Under the pieces are notes generated by a model. The model was not told where the DNA came from. It worked only from the letters and a program-made list of their open reading frames with translations, and searched no databases. The translations under genes and the position numbers were made by a program. Of a stretch of DNA of 64,000 nt, positions 49,437 to 57,738 are shown piece by piece (the stretch's first letter is position 1; each line of letters begins with the position of its first letter). The DNA comes from Nocardioides albidus (GTDB lineage: Bacteria; Actinomycetota; Actinomycetes; Propionibacteriales; Nocardioidaceae), in NCBI RefSeq assembly GCF_006335005.1, contig NZ_VDMP01000025.1, forward strand, positions 450,187 to 514,186, read 5' to 3'.

Positions 49437-51815
49437 CTACCGCGCGCCACCCCGCTCGCCGGGTGCCTCGCGCAGCAGCGCGTCGAGCAGGGCGACGGCG
49501 CCGGCCTTGTCGAGCGGGTCGTTGCCGTTGCCGCACTTGGGGGACTGGATGCAGGACGGGCAGCCGGTCGCGCACTCGCAGGCCGCGATCGTGGCCCGGG
49601 TGGCGCGCAGCCAGGCGGCGGCGGTGCGGTAGCCGCGCTCGGCGAACCCGGCACCCCCGGGGTGGCCGTCGTGGACGAAGACGGTGAGCACGCCGGTGTC
49701 GGGATGGCGGGCGGTCGAGACGCCGCCGATGTCCCAGCGATCGCAGGTCGCGAAGAGAGGAAGGAGGCCGATGGAGCAGTGCTCGGCGGCGTGGGCGGCG
49801 CCGGGCAGGTCCGCAGGCGCCAGGCCCGCCGACGTGCGGAGGTCGCCGAGGACCGCATCGGGCACGGTCCACCACACGGCGGCGGTCGACAGCGTGCGCG
49901 CGGGCAGGTCGAGCGGGGTCTCGTCGATCACCTCGCCGGTGCGGGTGCGGCGCCGGAGGTAGGACGTCACCCGGCTGGTGACCTCGACGGTGCCGAAGGA
50001 GACCCGGCACGGTCCCCATGCGACGTGCTCGCGCTCGTCGACGATCTCGATGTCGGTCACGTCGCGTGCGGTCGTGGTGTGGTCGACCTCGGCGCGGTGC
50101 AGGGTCGCGACGTGCTCGTCGAGGTCGAGCGAGTCGACCAGCCAGGTCTCGCCGCGGTGGAGGTAGACGGCTCCCTCGTGGGCGGTGCTGTGCGCCCGTC
50201 CACCGTCGACGGTGCCGACCACCCGGCCGGTCCCGGACTCCACCAGCTGGACCTGGGCGCCGCCGGCCGAGCGGATGTCGGCGAGGTCGGCGGCACGGGC
50301 GCGGTCGGTCCAGTACCACCCGGCGGCCCGCCGGCGCAGCAGCCCGCGCTCGACCAGGGAGCCGAGCACCTCGCGCATGCGGGGGCCGAAGAGCTCGGCG
50401 TCCGCGACCGTCACCGGGATCTCCTGCGCCGCGGCGCACAGGTGCGGCCCCAGCACGTAGGGGTTGTCGGTGTCGAAGACCGTGCCCTCGACCGGGCGGC
50501 CGAGCAGCGCCTCGGGATGGTGGACGAGATAGGTGTCGAGCGGGTCGTCGCGGGCGACGAACAGGCCGAGGGCGCCCCCGCCGTCGCGGCCGGCGCGGCC
50601 GACCTGCTGCCAGAAAGCCGCCCGGGTGCCGGGGTAGCCGGTCACCACGACGGCGTCGAGACCGCTGATGTCGATCCCGAGCTCGAGAGCGTTGGTGGCG
50701 GCCATGCCGAGCAGACGTCCGCTGCGCAGATCCTGCTCGAGGGCGCGCCGCTCCTCGGGGAGGTAGCCGCCGCGGTAGGAGTCGATCCGGCCGGCGAGCG
50801 AGGGATCCACCTCGGCGACCAGCTCGCCGGCGCGGCGGGCCACGGTCTCGACGCCGTGTCGCGACCGCACGAACGCCAGGGTGCGCACGTCCTCGACCAC
50901 CAGGTCGGCGAGCAGGTCGGCGGTCTCGGCGGTGGCCGGGCGGCGCACAGGCGCACCGTGCTCGCCCTGGTACGACGTCAGCGGCGGCTCCCACAGCCCG
51001 AGGGCGAGCGCTCCGCGCGGTGAGCCGTCCTCGGTCACGGCGCTCACCTCGAGGCCGGTCATCCGGCGGGCGGTGACGTCGGGGTCGGCGACCGTGGCCG
51101 ACGCGAGGACGAACACCGGAGACGCGCCGTGGAACGCGCAGATGCGCCGCAGCCGGCGCACGATCTGCGCGACGTGGGCGCCGAAGACCCCGCGATAGTG
51201 GTGGCACTCGTCGATCACGACGTAGCGCAGCGAGCGGAGGAAGGAGGTCCAGCGCTCGTGGCTCGGGAGCAGGGAGCGGTGGAGCATGTCGGGGTTGGAG
51301 AGGACGTACTCCGCGTGGTCGCGGGTCCACTCGCGCTCCTCGGGCGTGCTGTCGCCGTCGTGGGTCGCGACCCGGACGTCGAGTCCGAGATCGCGGATCG
51401 CCGTGCACTGGTCGTGGGCGAGCGCCTTGGTGGGGGCGAGATAGAGCACGGACGCGCCGCGCTGTCCGCGCGGGCCGCGGGCCGCACGGATCTCGGAGAG
51501 CGCGGGCAACAGGTAGGCGAGGGACTTGCCGGACGCCGTACCGGTGGCGAGGACGACGTGCTCACCGCGGTGGGCCGCCTCGGCGGCGGCGACCTGGTGC
51601 TGCCAGGGGAGCACGACCCCGCGCCGGGAGTAGGCCGCCACCACCTCCGGGTCGGCCCACGCCGGCCAGGCGGCGGTGGCCGCCGCCCGCGCCGGGACCT
51701 GCTCGCGATGGGTCAGCCGCTGGGCCCGGGAGGGCAGCGCGACCAGCCGGTCGAGCAGCGCCTCGGGGTCGCGTCGGCCCGCCGGGGCGACGTCGAGATC
51801 GGGCTGCGCGGTCAC
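49437..51815 (-). CDS. DEAD/DEAH-box helicase, MrfA/YprA family (DUF1998)
   Basis: A 792-residue superfamily 2 helicase. Walker A is LATGTASGKSLAYLLPAL, the DEAH box is DECHHYRG, motif III is LASATV and the C-terminal lobe has ATNALELGIDISGLDAVV and QQVGRAGRDG. The C-terminal zinc site CECATGCPSCIQSPKC is that of MrfA-type proteins, which in Bacillus act in repair of mitomycin damage. The same gene (Rv3649) neighbours the tad and topA region in mycobacteria. The GTG at 51815 begins conserved sequence; frames reaching 51884 are less likely. Confidence 0.88.
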   Translation of the reverse strand: MTAQPDLDVAPAGRRDPEALLDRLVALPSRAQRLTHREQVPARAAATAAWPAWADPEVVAAYSRRGVVLPWQHQVAAAEAAHRGEHVVLATGTASGKSLAYLLPALSEIRAARGPRGQRGASVLYLAPTKALAHDQCTAIRDLGLDVRVATHDGDSTPEEREWTRDHAEYVLSNPDMLHRSLLPSHERWTSFLRSLRYVVIDECHHYRGVFGAHVAQIVRRLRRICAFHGASPVFVLASATVADPDVTARRMTGLEVSAVTEDGSPRGALALGLWEPPLTSYQGEHGAPVRRPATAETADLLADLVVEDVRTLAFVRSRHGVETVARRAGELVAEVDPSLAGRIDSYRGGYLPEERRALEQDLRSGRLLGMAATNALELGIDISGLDAVVVTGYPGTRAAFWQQVGRAGRDGGGALGLFVARDDPLDTYLVHHPEALLGRPVEGTVFDTDNPYVLGPHLCAAAQEIPVTVADAELFGPRMREVLGSLVERGLLRRRAAGWYWTDRARAADLADIRSAGGAQVQLVESGTGRVVGTVDGGRAHSTAHEGAVYLHRGETWLVDSLDLDEHVATLHRAEVDHTTTARDVTDIEIVDEREHVAWGPCRVSFGTVEVTSRVTSYLRRRTRTGEVIDETPLDLPARTLSTAAVWWTVPDAVLGDLRTSAGLAPADLPGAAHAAEHCSIGLLPLFATCDRWDIGGVSTARHPDTGVLTVFVHDGHPGGAGFAERGYRTAAAWLRATRATIAACECATGCPSCIQSPKCGNGNDPLDKAGAVALLDALLREAPGERGGAR

Positions 51816-51947
51816 CCTCGGATTGTCCCCCCGACCCCCGACACGGGGCGAACCCGTACCCATGGCATGTCCCGGTCGTTGCACGAGCGTGCGTCCGGCA
51901 TGGTTTGATAAGGGTCACTACGTAGGAGCTACTCCGGGGTGAGGGTC

Positions 51948-52280
51948 GTGAATCTGACACTGTCGACGCGCGAGGTCGGTGGGCGCACCGTCGTTGCCGT
52001 GGGTGGAGAGATCGACGTCTACACCGCCCCCAAGCTGCGTGACACCATCACCGAGCTGGTCGCCGGCGGCACCTACGACATCGTCGTGGACATGCAGGCG
52101 GTCGAGTTCCTCGACTCCACCGGCCTCGGGGTCCTCGTCGGCGGCCTGAAGAAGGTCCGTGCCCACGACGGCTCGCTCGAGCTCGTCTGCAACGCCGACC
52201 GGCTCCTGAAGATCTTCAAGATCACCGGACTGGCGAAGGTGTTCGTCATCCACGACTCGCCGGAGACCGCGCTCGCCTGA
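51948..52280 (+). CDS. Anti-sigma factor antagonist, BldG-like (STAS domain)
   Basis: A 110-residue STAS protein very like Bld[18 protein letters not shown] and [20 protein letters not shown] are the core; Ser57 in LDSTGLG is the phosphorylation site and falls at the same number as in BldG. When unphosphorylated such proteins sequester an anti-sigma kinase. The GTG at 51948 gives the usual BldG start; GTG 51939 is possible. Unlike in Streptomyces, no anti-sigma gene follows; an RsbQ-like gene and a PAS-GGDEF gene do, after 58 bases. It is divergent from the helicase gene. Confidence 0.88.
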
Positions 52281-52338
52281 GCCTGGCACCGCTCAGCTCA
52301 CGGCCGCCTCGGCCGAATCTCCTCGCAAAGGAGAACCG

Positions 52339-53184
52339 ATGACAGCCACCGCCAGCGACACCGGTCCCGCGCCGGGCCCACTCGCGCGACGCCATGCCGC
52401 CACCGTGCACGAGGTGCGCGGCACCGTCCCGCTCCTCCTCTCCCACGGCTTCGGGACGAGCCAGGAGATGTGGGGCCGGCTCGTGCCGCTGGTCGAGGAG
52501 AGTCGCTCGGTCGTGCTCATGGACCACGTCGGCGCCGGCGGCTCGGACCTCTCGGCCTACGACCCGCGCCGCTACCAGACGCTGCGCGGGTACGCCGCCG
52601 ACGTCGCCGACCTGCTCGACGAGCTCGCGCTGGGCCCGGTCCACTACGTCGGCCACTCCGCCGGAGGCATGATCGGCGTCCTGGCCGCCCTCGCCCGCCC
52701 GGAGCTGTTCGCGTCGCTGTCGCTGGTCGGCGCGTCGCCGCGCTATCTCGACGACGACGGCTACGTCGGCGGGTTCACCCGGGCGGGGGTCGACGACCTG
52801 CTCGAGGCCATGGAGGCCAACTTTTTCCAGTGGTCGCGCTCGCTCGCCCCGGTCGCCATGGCCAACCCGGAGCGCCCGGAGCTCGCCGAGGAGCTGGCCG
52901 CCATCTTCGCGCGCACCCAGGCGCAGATCGCCGTCGACTTCGCGCGCGCGATCTTCCTCTCCGACTTCCGTGACGAGCTGCCCGGCGTGAGCCTGCCGAC
53001 CCACGTGGTGCAGGCGGCCGACGACCCGATGGTCCCGGCCGCGGTCGGCCGCTTCCTGCACGCCGCGATCCCCGGCAGCCGGCTGTCCCTCCTCGAGGCG
53101 ACCGGGCACTTCCCGCACGTCAGCGGTCCGGACGAGACCGCTCGGGCGCTTCTCGGCTTCCTCGACTCCCTCGCGCTGACGTGA
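52339..53184 (+). CDS. RsbQ-like alpha/beta hydrolase
   Basis: A 281-residue alpha/beta hydrolase. The nucleophile elbow is YVGHSAGGMIG with Ser107; the acid is in QAADDPMVP (about Asp228) and the base is His257 in ATGHFPHVS. The segments LVGASPRYLDDDGYVGGF and LEAMEANFFQW, and the ending HFPHVSGPDET, match RsbQ, the hydrolase that makes or binds a small hydrophobic signal for the energy-stress phosphatase RsbP of Bacillus. KAI2/D14 plant receptors are of the same family. AAGGAG lies six bases before the ATG. The stop overlaps the next GTG, so it is made together with a PAS protein. Confidence 0.88.
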   Translation: MTATASDTGPAPGPLARRHAATVHEVRGTVPLLLSHGFGTSQEMWGRLVPLVEESRSVVLMDHVGAGGSDLSAYDPRRYQTLRGYAADVADLLDELALGPVHYVGHSAGGMIGVLAALARPELFASLSLVGASPRYLDDDGYVGGFTRAGVDDLLEAMEANFFQWSRSLAPVAMANPERPELAEELAAIFARTQAQIAVDFARAIFLSDFRDELPGVSLPTHVVQAADDPMVPAAVGRFLHAAIPGSRLSLLEATGHFPHVSGPDETARALLGFLDSLALT

Positions 53185-54518
53185 GCGACGCGCTGCTCTA
53201 CGACCACGCGCCCTGCGGCTACCTGACGACCAGCGCCGACGGGGTCGTCAGCCGCGCCAACGCGACCCTCCTCGGCTGGCTGGGTCGCGGGTACGACGCG
53301 CTGGTCGGGACGCAGTTCGCCGACCACCTGCGGGCCGGCGCGCGCGTGGTGTGGCTGACCCACCACATCCCGCGCCTCGCCGCCACCGGTCGCCTCGACG
53401 CCGTCGCGGTCGACGTCGTGCGTGCGGACGGGTCCCTGCTCCCCGCGATCGTCACGGCGGTCCTGAGCCCCGACCCACCGCCGGCGGGCGGGCGTCCCGA
53501 GGTGCTGATCACCCTCATCGACGCCTCCGAGCGCCAGGCCTACGAGCGGGAGCTGCTCCTCGCCCGCCAGGCCGCGGAGCGGGCCCGCTGGCGCATGCGC
53601 GCCCTGCAGCGGGTCACCGAGGCCTGCGCGACCGCGGAGACCGAGGACGTCCTCGCCCACGGCGTCGCCGCCGCGGTCGCGGCCGGCCTCGAGCTCGCCG
53701 TCGCCCGGGTCTGGCTGGACCGGGACGGCGCCCTGACCGCCGCGGCCGCCGACAGCGTCGTCGACGGGGACGCCACCTGGGCGGACGAGGCCCCGAGCAT
53801 GGACAGCTTCCGTGCCTGGCGCGACGGGATCCCCGTGCTGCCCGAGCAGACGGCCGGGACCCGCACGAGCGCCGCCGTACCGCTCGGCCACGGCGGCGAG
53901 ACCCTGGGCGTGCTGGAGGTCGTCGTCGCCGAGACCTGGCGGGGGACGCCCGCCGACCTCGAGGTCCTCGTGATGATGGGGGCCGTGATCGGCCAGGCGC
54001 TCGCCCGGGCCCGGATGCACGCCCGCATGGAGCGGATGGCGCTGTACGACGACCTGACCGACCTGCCGAACCGCGCCCTGTTCCTGCGCACCGTCGAGCA
54101 GGCCGTCGCCAGGTCGCGCCGCGCGAGCACCCGGCTCACGCTCCTCTTCGTCGACCTCGACGGGTTCAAGGGCGTCAACGACACCTACGGCCACGCCGCG
54201 GGCGACCAGGTCCTGCAGGAGTGCGCCGGCCGGATCCGCGGAGCCGTCCGCGCCGCGGACCTCGTGGCGCGCCTCGGCGGCGACGAGTTCGTCGTCCTGT
54301 GCGAGGACTGCTCCCCCGAGATCGCCGAGGAGATCGCCCAGCGGGTCCGCGACGGCGTACGAGAGCCCATCGTCCTGGCCGACGGCATCGCCGAGGTGGG
54401 TGCGAGCGTGGGCATCACGACCGCCGTGCCGCCGCACGACGAGGGGATCGTCGACCGGCTCATCGCCGACGGCGACGCGGCGATGTACGCCGAGAAGGCC
54501 GGCCGACAGCGACTGTGA
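53181..54518 (+). CDS. PAS-GAF-GGDEF diguanylate cyclase paired with RsbQ-like protein
   Basis: A 445-residue soluble protein. Residues 1-115 form a PAS domain whose opening, DHAPCGYLTTSADG, and WLTHHIPRLAATGRLD resemble the RsbP sensor domain. A helical linker (115-155) leads to a GAF-like domain (about 155-290), then a GGDEF domain (about 290-445) with DDLTDLPNRALF, FVDLDGFKGVND and an intact ARLGGDEFVVL. RAAD five residues before GGDEF is an inhibitory I-site. It should make cyclic di-GMP under control of a ligand delivered by the RsbQ-like partner. In Bacillus the same type of PAS controls a PP2C phosphatase; none is present here. Confidence 0.88.
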   Translation: MSDALLYDHAPCGYLTTSADGVVSRANATLLGWLGRGYDALVGTQFADHLRAGARVVWLTHHIPRLAATGRLDAVAVDVVRADGSLLPAIVTAVLSPDPPPAGGRPEVLITLIDASERQAYERELLLARQAAERARWRMRALQRVTEACATAETEDVLAHGVAAAVAAGLELAVARVWLDRDGALTAAAADSVVDGDATWADEAPSMDSFRAWRDGIPVLPEQTAGTRTSAAVPLGHGGETLGVLEVVVAETWRGTPADLEVLVMMGAVIGQALARARMHARMERMALYDDLTDLPNRALFLRTVEQAVARSRRASTRLTLLFVDLDGFKGVNDTYGHAAGDQVLQECAGRIRGAVRAADLVARLGGDEFVVLCEDCSPEIAEEIAQRVRDGVREPIVLADGIAEVGASVGITTAVPPHDEGIVDRLIADGDAAMYAEKAGRQRL

Positions 54519-54626: not shown

Positions 54627-56951
54627 ATGCCCCATCCGTCCGTCGTGCCGTTGCTCGCAGAAGTCGGCGAGGTCGAGGTCACGGGAGGCGATCTCGCTCT
54701 CGTGGCGGTCGTCGCCCTGATCGCTGTCGGCTCCCTCGCCATGGCCGCGCTCTTCAGATCGGAGGTCCTGCGCGCCGGCGAGGGCACCCCCAACATGCAG
54801 CGCATCGCGCAGGCCGTTCAGGAAGGGGCGAACGCCTATCTCACCCGGCAGTTCCGGACCCTGACGATCTTCGCGGCGATCGCGTTCGTCGTCCTGCTCG
54901 CCCTGCCGGCGCACACCACCGACGACGCGAGCGGGCTCCAGTCGGAGTGGATGGTCCGGATCTTCCGGTCGGTCTTCTTCCTCGTGGGCGCCGGATTCTC
55001 CGGTGCGGTCGGCTATCTCGGCATGTCCCTGGCCGTGCGCGCCAACCTGCGCGTCGCCGCCGCGGCCAACGAGCAGGGCCGCGACCCCGCGATGAACATC
55101 GGCTTCCGGACGGGTGCCTTCGTCGGCATGTTCACCGTCGGCCTGGGCCTGCTGGGAGCCAGTGTCGTCGTCATCGTCTTCCAGAGCGCGGCCCCCAACG
55201 TGCTGGAGGGCTTCGGCTTCGGAGCCGCCCTGCTCGCGATGTTCATGCGCGTCGGCGGCGGCATCTTCACCAAGGCCGCCGACGTGGGCGCCGACCTGGT
55301 CGGCAAGGTCGAGCAGAACATCCCCGAGGACGACCCGCGCAACGCGGCGACGATCGCCGACAACGTCGGCGACAACGTCGGCGACTGCGCCGGCATGGCG
55401 GCCGACCTGTTCGAGTCGTACGCCGTCACGCTGGTCGCCGCGCTGATCCTGGGCTCGCAGGCGTTCGGCGACCGGGGCCTGGTCTTCCCGCTCATCGTCC
55501 CGGCGATCGGCGCGCTGTCGGCCATCGCCGGCGTCTACCTCACCAAGCCGCGTGCGGGCGAGAGCGGCCTGAAGACGATCAACCGGGCGTTCTACATGTC
55601 GGCGGCGTTCGGGCTGGTCGCCAGCGCGATCGCCGCGTTCGTCTACCTGCCGACCGAGTGGAGCGAGTTCGGGACCGGCGCCGAGGCCGACCTCAGCCCG
55701 CAGCTGTTCGCGGCCGGGGCGGTGGCGATCGGCATCGTCCTCGCCGCCGCGATCCTCGCCCTCACCGGCTACTTCACCGGCACCGAGCACCGTCCCGTCA
55801 AGGACGTCGCGCGGACGTCGCTGACCGGCCACGCGACGGTCATCCTGTCCGGCCTCTCCGTGGGCCTCGAGTCCGCGGTCTACACGGCGATCGTGATCGG
55901 CGCGGCCGTCTTCGGCGCGGCGCTCCTCGCCGGCGGCTCGACCGGTCTCGCCCTGTTCGCCGTCGCACTCGCCGGCTGCGGCCTGCTCACCACGGTCGGC
56001 GTGATCGTCGCGATGGACACCTTCGGTCCGGTCTCCGACAACGCCCAGGGCATCGCGGAGATGTCGGGCGACGTCAGCGAGGAGGGGGCGCAGATCCTCA
56101 CCGAGCTCGACGCGGTCGGCAACACGACCAAGGCGATCACCAAGGGCATCGCGATCGCGACGGCCGTGCTCGCCGCGAGCGCCCTCTTCGCGTCGTACAC
56201 GCAGAGCGCCTACACCGAGGTCGGGGCCGCCATCCTCGACCGCGAGTTCCTCGTCTACGACGCCAAGCTCATCGTCGGCGCGCTGCTCGGCGCCAGCGTG
56301 GTGTTCCTCTTCTCCGGGCTCGCGATCAACGCCGTCGGCCGCGCGGCGGGCGCCGTGGTGTTCGAGGTGCGCCGGCAGTTCCGCGAGATCCCCGGCATCA
56401 TGGAGGGCACCGGCCGTCCGGAGTACGGCCGCGTGGTCGACATCGTGACCCGGGACTCGCTGCGCGAGCTCGCGACCCCCGGCATCCTCGCCATCCTGGC
56501 GCCGGTGGCGGTCGGCTTCGGTCTCGGCGTCGGCCCGCTCGCGGGCTTCCTCGTCGGCGCGATCGCGACCGGCACCCTGATGGCGGTCTTCCTCGCCAAC
56601 GCGGGCGGCGCCTGGGACAACGCGAAGAAGCTGGTCGAGGACGGCCACCACGGCGGCAAGGGGTCGGAGGCGCACGCGGCCACGGTCACCGGCGACACCG
56701 TCGGCGACCCGTTCAAGGACACCGCCGGTCCCTCGATCAATCCGCTGCTCAAGGTGATGAACCTGGTGTCGCTGCTGATCGTCGGCGCCGTGGTCAGCCT
56801 CAGCTACGGCGAGGACGAGAACGACCTGGTCCGGATCCTCATCGCGCTCGCCGCCGCGGCAGGCATCTTCGCCGCGGTCTACGTGTCCAAGCAGCGCACC
56901 TCCGCGATCGACGACGGGGCCTCGGAGCCCGCGGTCACGGAGTCGGCCTGA
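54627..56951 (+). CDS. hppA: Membrane proton-pumping pyrophosphatase, K+-independent type
   Basis: Couples pyrophosphate hydrolysis to proton pumping. The 774-residue protein has about sixteen membrane segments. The catalytic block contains DVGADLVGKVEQNIPEDD, then NAATIADNVGDNVGDCAGMA and, near the end, GDTVGDPFKDTAGPSINPL. The K+-dependence determinant reads GNTTKAITKG, with Lys and Thr at the two diagnostic positions, which marks the K+-independent class. AGGAGG lies eight bases before the ATG. It would recover energy from pyrophosphate made in biosynthesis, including by acs. Confidence 0.95.
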   Translation: MPHPSVVPLLAEVGEVEVTGGDLALVAVVALIAVGSLAMAALFRSEVLRAGEGTPNMQRIAQAVQEGANAYLTRQFRTLTIFAAIAFVVLLALPAHTTDDASGLQSEWMVRIFRSVFFLVGAGFSGAVGYLGMSLAVRANLRVAAAANEQGRDPAMNIGFRTGAFVGMFTVGLGLLGASVVVIVFQSAAPNVLEGFGFGAALLAMFMRVGGGIFTKAADVGADLVGKVEQNIPEDDPRNAATIADNVGDNVGDCAGMAADLFESYAVTLVAALILGSQAFGDRGLVFPLIVPAIGALSAIAGVYLTKPRAGESGLKTINRAFYMSAAFGLVASAIAAFVYLPTEWSEFGTGAEADLSPQLFAAGAVAIGIVLAAAILALTGYFTGTEHRPVKDVARTSLTGHATVILSGLSVGLESAVYTAIVIGAAVFGAALLAGGSTGLALFAVALAGCGLLTTVGVIVAMDTFGPVSDNAQGIAEMSGDVSEEGAQILTELDAVGNTTKAITKGIAIATAVLAASALFASYTQSAYTEVGAAILDREFLVYDAKLIVGALLGASVVFLFSGLAINAVGRAAGAVVFEVRRQFREIPGIMEGTGRPEYGRVVDIVTRDSLRELATPGILAILAPVAVGFGLGVGPLAGFLVGAIATGTLMAVFLANAGGAWDNAKKLVEDGHHGGKGSEAHAATVTGDTVGDPFKDTAGPSINPLLKVMNLVSLLIVGAVVSLSYGEDENDLVRILIALAAAAGIFAAVYVSKQRTSAIDDGASEPAVTESA

Positions 56952-56961
56952 GCCTGATCTG

Positions 56962-57738
56962 ATGACCCGGCTGCTGGCCGCGCTGGCGGCGGCCCTCGTG
57001 GTCGTCGCCGGCGCGGCCGTCGTCGTTCCGGTGCAGGCGGCGGCGCCCGGACGGGCGAGCGCCGCGGCGGCGTACGTCGAGACGTCGATCGTCATCGGCA
57101 CCTCGGCGCGCGGCCGACCGATCCGGGCGTTCTACCGCGGGGACGAGGGAGCGCCGCACGTGCTGCTGGTGCTCGGCCAGATGCACGGCGACGAGAAGGA
57201 CGGGATCGCCACCGCCCGGTGGATCCGCGACCACGTCCACCCGCGGCCGGGCACGGGCGTGTGGGTGGTGCCGACGATGAACCCGGACGGCAACGCGCGC
57301 GGCACCCGCACCAACGGCCGCGGCGTCGACCTGAACCGCAACTGGCCGACGAGCGGCTGGTCCGGCGCCCACCGCGGGACCCGCTACTGGGGCGGCCGGC
57401 GACCGGCGAGCGAGCCGGAGACGCGGGCCATGATGGCCTTCCTGAGTCAGGTGCGACCCGACTACATCGCCTCGATCCATCAGCCCCTGCGGGCGATCGG
57501 GCGCGGCGGTCACGGCCGCTGGGAGCGGCGGCTGGCGCGCTTCCTCCACCTGCCCCGTCGCCATCTGGGCGTGGGCAACCCGGCCGGCACGGACTCGCCG
57601 ACCCTCACCGCCTGGTACGACACCACGCACGGCCAGGACGGCGCCGCCGTCACGGTCGAGTACGGCGCCCGCACCACCCACCGCTACCGCACCCGGGTCG
57701 CGGGCCGCGGCATCGCGCGCGCGGCCCGCGTCCGCTGA
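56962..57738 (+). CDS. Secreted M14 family zinc carboxypeptidase
   Basis: A 258-residue exported peptidase. The signal peptide covers residues 1-28 (cleavage near VQAAA). LGQMHGDEKDG carries the HxxE zinc ligands, the substrate-binding block is NPDGNARGTRTNGRGVDLNR, and the third His is in ASIHQPL. VEYG near residue 234 supplies the catalytic Glu. The short single domain is like the MpaA/DD-carboxypeptidase branch of M14 that acts on peptidoglycan peptides. It begins 10 bases after hppA and could be co-transcribed with it. Confidence 0.85.
   Translation: MTRLLAALAAALVVVAGAAVVVPVQAAAPGRASAAAAYVETSIVIGTSARGRPIRAFYRGDEGAPHVLLVLGQMHGDEKDGIATARWIRDHVHPRPGTGVWVVPTMNPDGNARGTRTNGRGVDLNRNWPTSGWSGAHRGTRYWGGRRPASEPETRAMMAFLSQVRPDYIASIHQPLRAIGRGGHGRWERRLARFLHLPRRHLGVGNPAGTDSPTLTAWYDTTHGQDGAAVTVEYGARTTHRYRTRVAGRGIARAARVR

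Follow-up and report, generated by a model that had tools for sequence, protein, structure and literature searches.

A putative two-protein sensor in Nocardioides albidus: an RsbQ-type hydrolase gene overlapping the gene of a predicted PAS-GAF-GGDEF diguanylate cyclase

In Bacillus subtilis, a Ser/Asp/His hydrolase (RsbQ) and its PAS partner (RsbP) are encoded by adjacent genes, and the output of RsbP is a PPM phosphatase that activates sigma-B via the STAS protein RsbV. Modules of this RsbQ-PAS type were surveyed by Nadezhdin et al. (2011; PMC3183031), whose 45 examples have a phosphatase, a kinase or a cyclase as output. A diguanylate cyclase coupled to RsbQ-PAS, a point restated in 2025 (PMC12143880), is thus not new in itself. 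In the main text of the 2011 survey (PMC3183031), extra PAS or EAL domains are mentioned for its modules, the term "GAF" appears nowhere, and the natural signal of the modules is still called mysterious. The genetics of the RsbQ-RsbP contact point to F55 and Y59 of RsbP, and a change to alanine at either F55 or E72 abolishes function (PMC3183031). In an AF2 model of the complex, RsbQ is placed between the PAS domain and the linker (PMC12143880). A study of the particular hydrolase-cyclase pair described below was not found among the open-licence papers.

The window, i.e., the whole stretch of 64,000 nt of Nocardioides albidus DNA within which all positions are counted, contains three neighbouring genes, each situated where the earlier note had placed it. 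Their features are as follows:

51948-52280, + strand: STAS-domain gene, BldG-like anti-anti-sigma protein with Ser57, probably a neighbour and not part of the module (TIGR00377, E 4.6e-30; PF01740, E 2.7e-21)
52339-53184, + strand: RsbQ-type alpha/beta hydrolase, triad S107/D229/H257, no cysteine (phmmer, AF2, VIA-align, alignment)
53181-54518, + strand: predicted PAS-GAF-GGDEF diguanylate cyclase, gene overlapping that of the hydrolase by GTGA (Pfam, AF2, open reading frame)
53181-53525, + strand: RsbP-type PAS domain, residues 1-115, APCGYL motif at 10-15 (alignment with PAS partners at other RsbQ loci, model)
53334-53387, + strand: PAS F-alpha helix, residues 52-69, with V57, W58, H61 and P64 at RsbP positions 55, 56, 59 and 62 (model, alignment)
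53526-53633, + strand: continuous linker helix, residues 116-151, motif R118-x-x-Y121-E122-x-x-L125 (model, motif counts)
53634-53948, + strand: GAF domain, residues 152-256 (PF01590, model)
54048-54515, + strand: GGDEF domain, with GGDEF 366-370 at 54276-54290 and I-site RxxD 357-360 at 54249-54260 (PF00990, E 1.3e-40; Foldseek to solved cyclases)

The overlap that had already been noticed comprises 4 bases, the stop codon TGA of the hydrolase gene occupying 53182-53184 and the GGDEF gene starting with GTG at 53181. The general organization is that of the cyclase modules described in 2011 (PMC3183031): the RsbQ homologue gene lies immediately upstream of the gene for the PAS protein, which consists of an N-terminal RsbP-type PAS domain without a DIT motif, a helical linker and a GGDEF output. 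In contrast to those modules, the window protein possesses a GAF domain between PAS and GGDEF as well as V55 and A72, and its hydrolase is free of cysteine. New features are this cysteine-free hydrolase with its changed triad neighbours, the lack of two PAS residues needed in RsbP, and a pattern that relates PAS position 59 to the output. Together, hydrolase and PAS-GAF-GGDEF protein probably constitute one two-protein, ligand-sensing sensor, a diverged representative of the RsbQ-PAS type, that sets the cyclic-di-GMP level, with contact, ligand and cyclase activity all putative. Family and fold matches, the RsbQ-PAS pairing, the linker motif and an orthologous pair in genome G268 speak for this reading; the changes F55V and E72A, the occurrence of the linker motif in only 1/11 GGDEF-EAL partners, the diverged hydrolase and a close relative (G006) without the pair speak against it.

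Concerning the hydrolase, the best match among solved structures is RsbQ (1wom), both by sequence (phmmer, E 1.5e-68) and by predicted fold (VIA-align, Z 42.2, 1.5 A over 269 residues; pLDDT of the AF2 model 93.9). The next-best structures by sequence and fold include the bacterial hydrolase 3qvm and, after it, the plant karrikin and strigolactone receptors KAI2/D14, which share fold and triad with the window hydrolase. The plant receptors have F-box and repressor proteins as partners, whereas the partner here is a bacterial PAS protein, the neighbouring enzyme predicted to make cyclic-di-GMP. The triad is intact, and its columns are invariant in RsbQ alignments. S107 and H257 had been named correctly in the earlier note, whereas the aspartate is D229 instead of D228; D229 is unchanged throughout alignments of 17 and of 31 RsbQ sequences and aligns with D219 of RsbQ. 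Neither the window hydrolase nor its orthologue contains any cysteine. Since four cysteines common in the RsbQ family are thereby missing and the residues beside the triad are altered in both proteins, the ligand or the contact may differ from those of other family members.

The neighbourhood survey that had been proposed for this pair found a PAS partner with an output directly downstream at all 79 RsbQ loci of the genus and family level, window included. In the wider set, an RsbP-type PAS partner is present at 227 of 233 RsbQ loci and was not found at L197, L203, L207, L254, L256 and L308, such that the pairing holds across outputs and phyla. This set was obtained after removal of eleven duplicate loci and of L298, which has no downstream sequence, and its genome sets may still overlap. 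Outputs were assigned by tblastn and remained uncalled for 16/233 partners, in part cut by the locus ends. As the named loci are the best 80 of 588, frequencies over the named taxa are no census. What the survey adds is that cyclases are the prevailing output in one actinobacterial family, the second examined (f8; 47/49 RsbQ loci), that kinase outputs of RsbQ modules also occur in Nocardioides, and that the output type is tracked by a residue in the PAS helix implicated in the contact with RsbQ.

The PAS domain had been described as RsbP-like, and it is of this kind, though its match to the class residues is partial. The PAS_9 match lies below the cut-off (20 vs 27 bits), whereas that of the orthologue at L128 exceeds it (31.7 bits). 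With RsbP positions mapped by motif spacing and not by alignment of the B. subtilis sequence, six of the nine class residues (C10, L13, L48, basic 53, H59, P86) have the majority state and W56 a minority state, whereas F55 is replaced by V and E72 by A. At the end of the domain, D114-A-S is found in place of DIT, followed by ERQAYEREL. The subsequent linker exceeds the at least 21 helical residues typical of RsbQ-PAS modules: helix 116-151 of the AF2 model (pLDDT 92.7) runs into the GAF domain and not straight to the output, and continuous helices join PAS, GAF and GGDEF. Its motif RxxYExxL occurs in 44/49 GGDEF, 132/137 phosphatase and 16/16 kinase partners, compared to 43/4480 shuffles and 0/9 among the other PAS matches of the same genome; being mostly absent from GGDEF-EAL partners, it is not needed in every RsbQ-PAS module.

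These observations bear on one alternative, namely an ordinary esterase encoded next to a cyclase that answers to a ligand of its own PAS or GAF domain, the adjacency reflecting shared expression only. Two residues important for contact or function in RsbP are changed in the window PAS, and the GAF domain, situated between PAS and GGDEF, could be the real sensor. An ordinary esterase is nevertheless unlikely, considering the pairing across outputs and phyla, likewise described in PMC3183031, the intact linker motif, and the position of RsbQ as the closest structure ahead of the plant receptors.

Concerning the output, the GAF match is above its threshold (PF01590, 26.9 bits vs cut-off 22.4), and the GGDEF domain scores 139 bits. 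GGDEF, DLDGFK and NDTYGH are present, including the metal and base residues near GGDEF that mark diguanylate cyclases, as is the I-site R357-A-A-D360 five residues before GGDEF 366-370. The intact GGDEF with I-site reported earlier is hence borne out as an intact-looking cyclase of predicted activity. The orthologue in G268 is only 50% identical, compared to 83-96% in the flanking genes, which might mean weak constraint and would suit a cyclic-di-GMP receptor or a dead-cyclase scaffold in place of an enzyme, cyclase activity being a prediction. Such a non-enzymatic role is highly improbable in view of the complete motif set and the 139 bits, and GGDEF and RxxD are also retained in L128.

For the two-protein sensor, the following course of events can be proposed. 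A small molecule would enter the pocket of the RsbQ-type hydrolase, which would be docked on the F-alpha helix of the PAS domain and on the opening turns of the linker helix (RxxYExxL); the hydrolase would then alter the packing of the linker in a PAS-GAF-GGDEF dimer, this repacking would set the cyclase activity and hence the cyclic-di-GMP level, and the product may inhibit the cyclase via the I-site. Direct contact between hydrolase and PAS, activation through the linker and a butenolide-like ligand are suggested by analogy with RsbQ-RsbP. Butenolides are reportedly ligands of B. subtilis RsbQ, a result that citing papers attribute to Melville et al. in 2024. Such a compact hydrolase-cyclase pair, its hydrolase related to karrikin receptors, could offer cyclic-di-GMP as a direct biochemical read-out of which small molecules such receptors sense.

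A link to a sigma-factor switch through the STAS gene had also been suspected. Ser57 of the STAS protein lies within an FLDST motif (counting from 51948), and an anti-sigma kinase gene is indeed lacking beside it at the window locus. The genome contains 19 matches to the anti-sigma kinase profile PF13581, five of them above the cut-off and located in open frames of 563-937 codons; a BldG kinase partner was not picked out among them. The 58 bp gap between bldG and the hydrolase gene contains no terminator-like site on that strand, and co-transcription is therefore possible. In G268, the orthologous pair keeps both order and site, and among phosphatase-type RsbQ loci a STAS gene lies, on either strand, at most 800 bp upstream in 9/138. 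One pathway in which the pair and the BldG-like protein together control a sigma factor is even so very unlikely, and the supposed link is unsupported: the STAS gene sits in a helicase-bldG-hppA block of the relatives, where hppA follows bldG after 159-720 bp without the pair in 19/20 related loci, G006 included. The pair is absent from all 20 other bldG loci examined. Where the upstream sequence of GGDEF-type RsbQ loci is long enough to judge, STAS lies directly upstream in 2/48, window and L128, which represent one site, and in 0/11 GGDEF-EAL loci; furthermore, a cyclase is not known to act on a STAS phosphoprotein. At the bldG-hppA site, the pair occurs in one small clade and has apparently been lost from one member, and its lack in G006, which is close to both carriers, indicates that it is dispensable. 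The STAS gene is probably a neighbour by insertion and not a partner, and would stand outside the mechanism of the sensor.

Concerning its descent, the window pair falls together with L128 inside a clade of 41 rows, all GGDEF-type, in the trees of the hydrolase and of hydrolase plus PAS (SH-aLRT 99). In the PAS-only tree, the rows nearest to the window after L128 are phosphatase-type, as are its nearest rows in the hydrolase tree without long rows. A recent swap from phosphatase to cyclase within Nocardioides, to which these two trees and H59 had pointed, was dropped because of the all-GGDEF clade and because trees holding the GGDEF rows together beat the free quick trees in likelihood (p-AU 0.924 in the PAS-only set and 0.963 in the hydrolase set stripped of long rows). 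With long branches in play, a common origin with the GGDEF-type RsbQ loci is favoured, not proved. Homology of the GAF domains was also considered as evidence (window GAF against a GGDEF-clade partner: BLAST E 3e-7), but the middle-region profile of the clade scores the GAF of phosphatase partners above that of the window, which without the linker falls outside the best 15; it supports neither side.

Position 59 of the PAS domain is His in 148/155 phosphatase or kinase partners and Arg in 48/60 cyclase partners, the window cyclase partner with its His being an exception. The counts are strong, yet the tree offers no more than 2 to 4 independent pairs, such that an output code at this site falls short of significance and was not accepted as proven. 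It can be imagined, though with considerable doubt, that the F-alpha helix carries an output-matched contact code (His59 for phosphatase and kinase, Arg or others for cyclase) and that the window clade was re-tuned, pocket and PAS contact having changed together (cysteines, triad neighbours, F55V, E72A), such that a different small molecule would set cyclic-di-GMP. The partners in family f8 (e.g., Agromyces allii, L172, and Naasia sp., L214) resemble the window in their upstream hydrolase and GGDEF output, with a GAF domain detected in many and a shared descent favoured by the trees, but mostly possess R at position 59, whereas the window has H. Their hydrolases share the states S41 and E43 with that of the window, which is 49% identical to the L172 hydrolase (53% in the best segment).

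Judged from its sequence, the pair formed by the RsbQ-type hydrolase gene and the PAS-GAF-GGDEF gene is a real two-gene sensor that has diverged within a class already described in 2011, with a putative ligand, a putative contact between both proteins and a putative cyclase activity. The genes are arranged as follows:

49437-51884, reverse strand: helicase gene, flanking on one side (named by eye from the sequence)
51948-52280, forward strand: STAS gene (bldG), anti-anti-sigma type (TIGR00377, E 4.6e-30)
52339-53184, forward strand: RsbQ-type hydrolase gene (family and fold match)
53181-54518, forward strand: PAS-GAF-GGDEF gene (domain matches and model)
54627-56951: hppA, flanking on the other side (named by eye from the sequence)

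Both the position of the STAS gene directly before the hydrolase gene and the overlap of the latter with the GGDEF gene by GTGA, as described in the earlier note, were recovered.

The nearest solved chain of the hydrolase is RsbQ of B. subtilis (E 1.5e-68), followed by the plant KAI2/D14 proteins, and its AF2 model (pLDDT 93.9) superposes on 1wom with Z 42.2 and 1.5 A over 269 residues. The own genome holds no second close RsbQ relative (next best of 16 matches, E 4.6e-10). The triad consists of S107, D229, and H257; the catalytic aspartate had been given as D228, whereas the invariant aspartate is D229. According to later papers, Melville et al. reportedly found in 2024 that RsbQ perceives butenolides. 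The hydrolases of the window and of the orthologous pair L128 (genome G268) contain no cysteine (median of the other hydrolases: 4), the usual C40, C191, C226, and C258 being T, A, A, and F, and the changes V108A, I231M, A232V, and C258F are situated next to the triad. The loss of cysteines together with the altered residues beside the triad suggests that the pocket may have changed in both proteins. S41 and E43 are common to the window hydrolase and the hydrolases of cyclase partners; S41 is found in 34/53 hydrolases with cyclase partners vs. 1/76.

The partner is a PAS-GAF-GGDEF protein, whose AF2 model (pLDDT 92.7) is divided as follows:

residues 1-115: PAS
residues 116-151: continuous helix
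residues 152-256: GAF
residues 257-288: helix between GAF and GGDEF
from residue 290: GGDEF domain

The GGDEF motif (residues 366-370) and, five residues ahead, the I-site R357xxD360 are both present, in agreement with the intact domain proposed before, and cyclase activity is predicted; the own genome has six GGDEF matches in total. The proposed likeness of the PAS domain to that of RsbP holds in part: in RsbP numbering, mapped by motif spacing, the majority state is found at C10, L13, L48, basic 53, H59, P62, and P86, whereas F55 is replaced by V and E72 by A, with W at 56. V55, W56, and A72 are shared with L128. In excerpts of PMC3183031, F55 and Y59 of the PAS F-alpha helix are shown to be important for interaction with RsbQ.

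The linker helix begins with R118xxY121E122xxL125. R118 is conserved in 222, Y121 in 200, and E122 in 219 of 224 partners, a set that contains the best 80 of 588 named loci. Scored as RxxYExxL (with F accepted for Y and I for L), the motif occurs in 44/49 GGDEF, 132/137 phosphatase, and 16/16 kinase partners (same best 80 of 588 included), in 43/4480 shuffled controls, and in 0/9 other PAS matches of the own genome. GGDEF-EAL partners (L071, L073, L076, L230, L311-L317) show it in 1/11 and carry R at PAS position 59 in 9/11. An AF2 model of two RsbP and two RsbQ, as excerpted from PMC12143880, places RsbQ between the PAS domains and the linkers. In five phosphatase-type partners of 763-887 residues (L160, L178, L183, L204, L231), the middle region scores to the linker and GAF profile of the cyclase partners, and judging by these, GAF after PAS seems to occur beyond cyclase outputs.

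RsbQ relatives were found in 44/215 genomes of the genus (E <= 1e-60), 50/198 of the family (E <= 1e-20), and, at E <= 1e-40, in 24/396 of the phylum, 44/249 of a second actinobacterial family (f8), and 9/66 of a further class. The neighbourhood survey suggested earlier yielded an RsbP-type PAS with an output directly 3' of RsbQ at 79/79 genus and family loci (window counted; G173, cut at a contig end, left out): 69 phosphatases, 4 GGDEF, 3 kinases, and 3 GGDEF-EAL. Family f8, probably Microbacteriaceae since members reach 80% identity to the Agromyces allii hydrolase, has 40 GGDEF, 7 GGDEF-EAL, and 2 uncalled outputs at its 49 loci, all examined (L260-L289, L300-L318; 47/49 cyclase-type, no phosphatase calls). 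The merged set of 233 loci, from which 11 duplicates and L298 (no downstream sequence) were left out, includes the best 80 of 588 named loci, which span Actinomycetota, Bacillota, Bacteroidota, Pseudomonadota, Myxococcota, and Acidobacteriota; PAS is present at 227/233, and outputs are phosphatase (139), GGDEF (50), kinase (17), GGDEF-EAL (11), or uncalled (16).

The swap of output put forward in the earlier note is not new, since the excerpts of PMC3183031 already report 45 RsbQ-PAS modules whose outputs are phosphatases, histidine kinases, or diguanylate cyclases; those of PMC12143880 restate these modules and output kinds of 2011. Kinase outputs are assigned to Gram-negative bacteria in the PMC3183031 excerpts, whereas here they are also found in Actinomycetota (L054, L134, L138, L201), including Nocardioides (L134/L226, Nocardioides lijunqiniae).

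PAS position 59 is His in 148/155 phosphatase and kinase partners vs. 3/60 cyclase partners (GGDEF and GGDEF-EAL), two of the three being the window and L128, and Arg in 48/60 cyclase partners (all including the best 80 of 588 named loci). The residue appears output-linked; with only 2 to 4 independent pairs on the tree, the association is not callable as significant.

In the hydrolase and hydrolase plus PAS trees (131 rows, thinned from 215), the window and L128 fall inside a clade whose 41 rows are all of the GGDEF type (SH-aLRT 99). A placement near the phosphatase types appears, unsupported, in the free PAS-only tree and in the hydrolase tree minus long rows; constraining the GGDEF rows together gave the higher likelihood in both (p-AU 0.924 and 0.963, respectively). 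The preferred reading is that the window pair belongs to the GGDEF clade and has diverged, a placement that long branches in the trees make tentative. The pair was possibly acquired by transfer into the genus.

Matches to bldG occur in 91 genomes, counting the own genome, and 20 bldG loci of relatives were compared. The helicase lies upstream in 20/20 and hppA downstream in 19/20, at 159-720 bp (not found at L118), and no RsbQ or cyclase match exists at these relatives' loci at E < 1e-6. In G268 the orthologous pair occupies the corresponding site; identity to the window is 83% for the helicase, 96% for STAS, and 85% for HppA, and the pair (52339-54518 vs. L128) diverges far faster, with 69% for the hydrolase and 50% for the cyclase. 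In genome G006 (L108), the pair is absent between bldG and hppA: homology to the window ends at 52276 (bldG end) and restarts at 54512 (cyclase gene end), with a spacer of 256 bases containing CTCGCTTCGCTCGC-type repeats. Since the helicase plus HppA tree joins G006 and G268 (98) and leaves the window outside, the simplest history would be a single gain followed by loss in G006.

A STAS gene lies upstream (either strand, within 800 bp, at loci whose upstream sequence spans 700 bases or more) of 2/48 GGDEF-type loci, these being the window and L128, of 0/11 GGDEF-EAL, and of 9/138 phosphatase-type loci (including the best 80 of 588 named loci); distant STAS genes may escape the one query used. 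Given these 2/48 loci and the bldG loci without the pair, the STAS adjacency is most readily explained by where the pair was inserted, and the sigma-factor link advanced in the earlier note is not supported. Co-transcription of bldG with the pair is possible, as the gap between bldG and the hydrolase gene measures 58 bp and no terminator-like site was found in it on the same strand. After hppA, an ORF at 56962-57738 resembles by eye a zinc carboxypeptidase (M14 type, with a DLNRNWP stretch).
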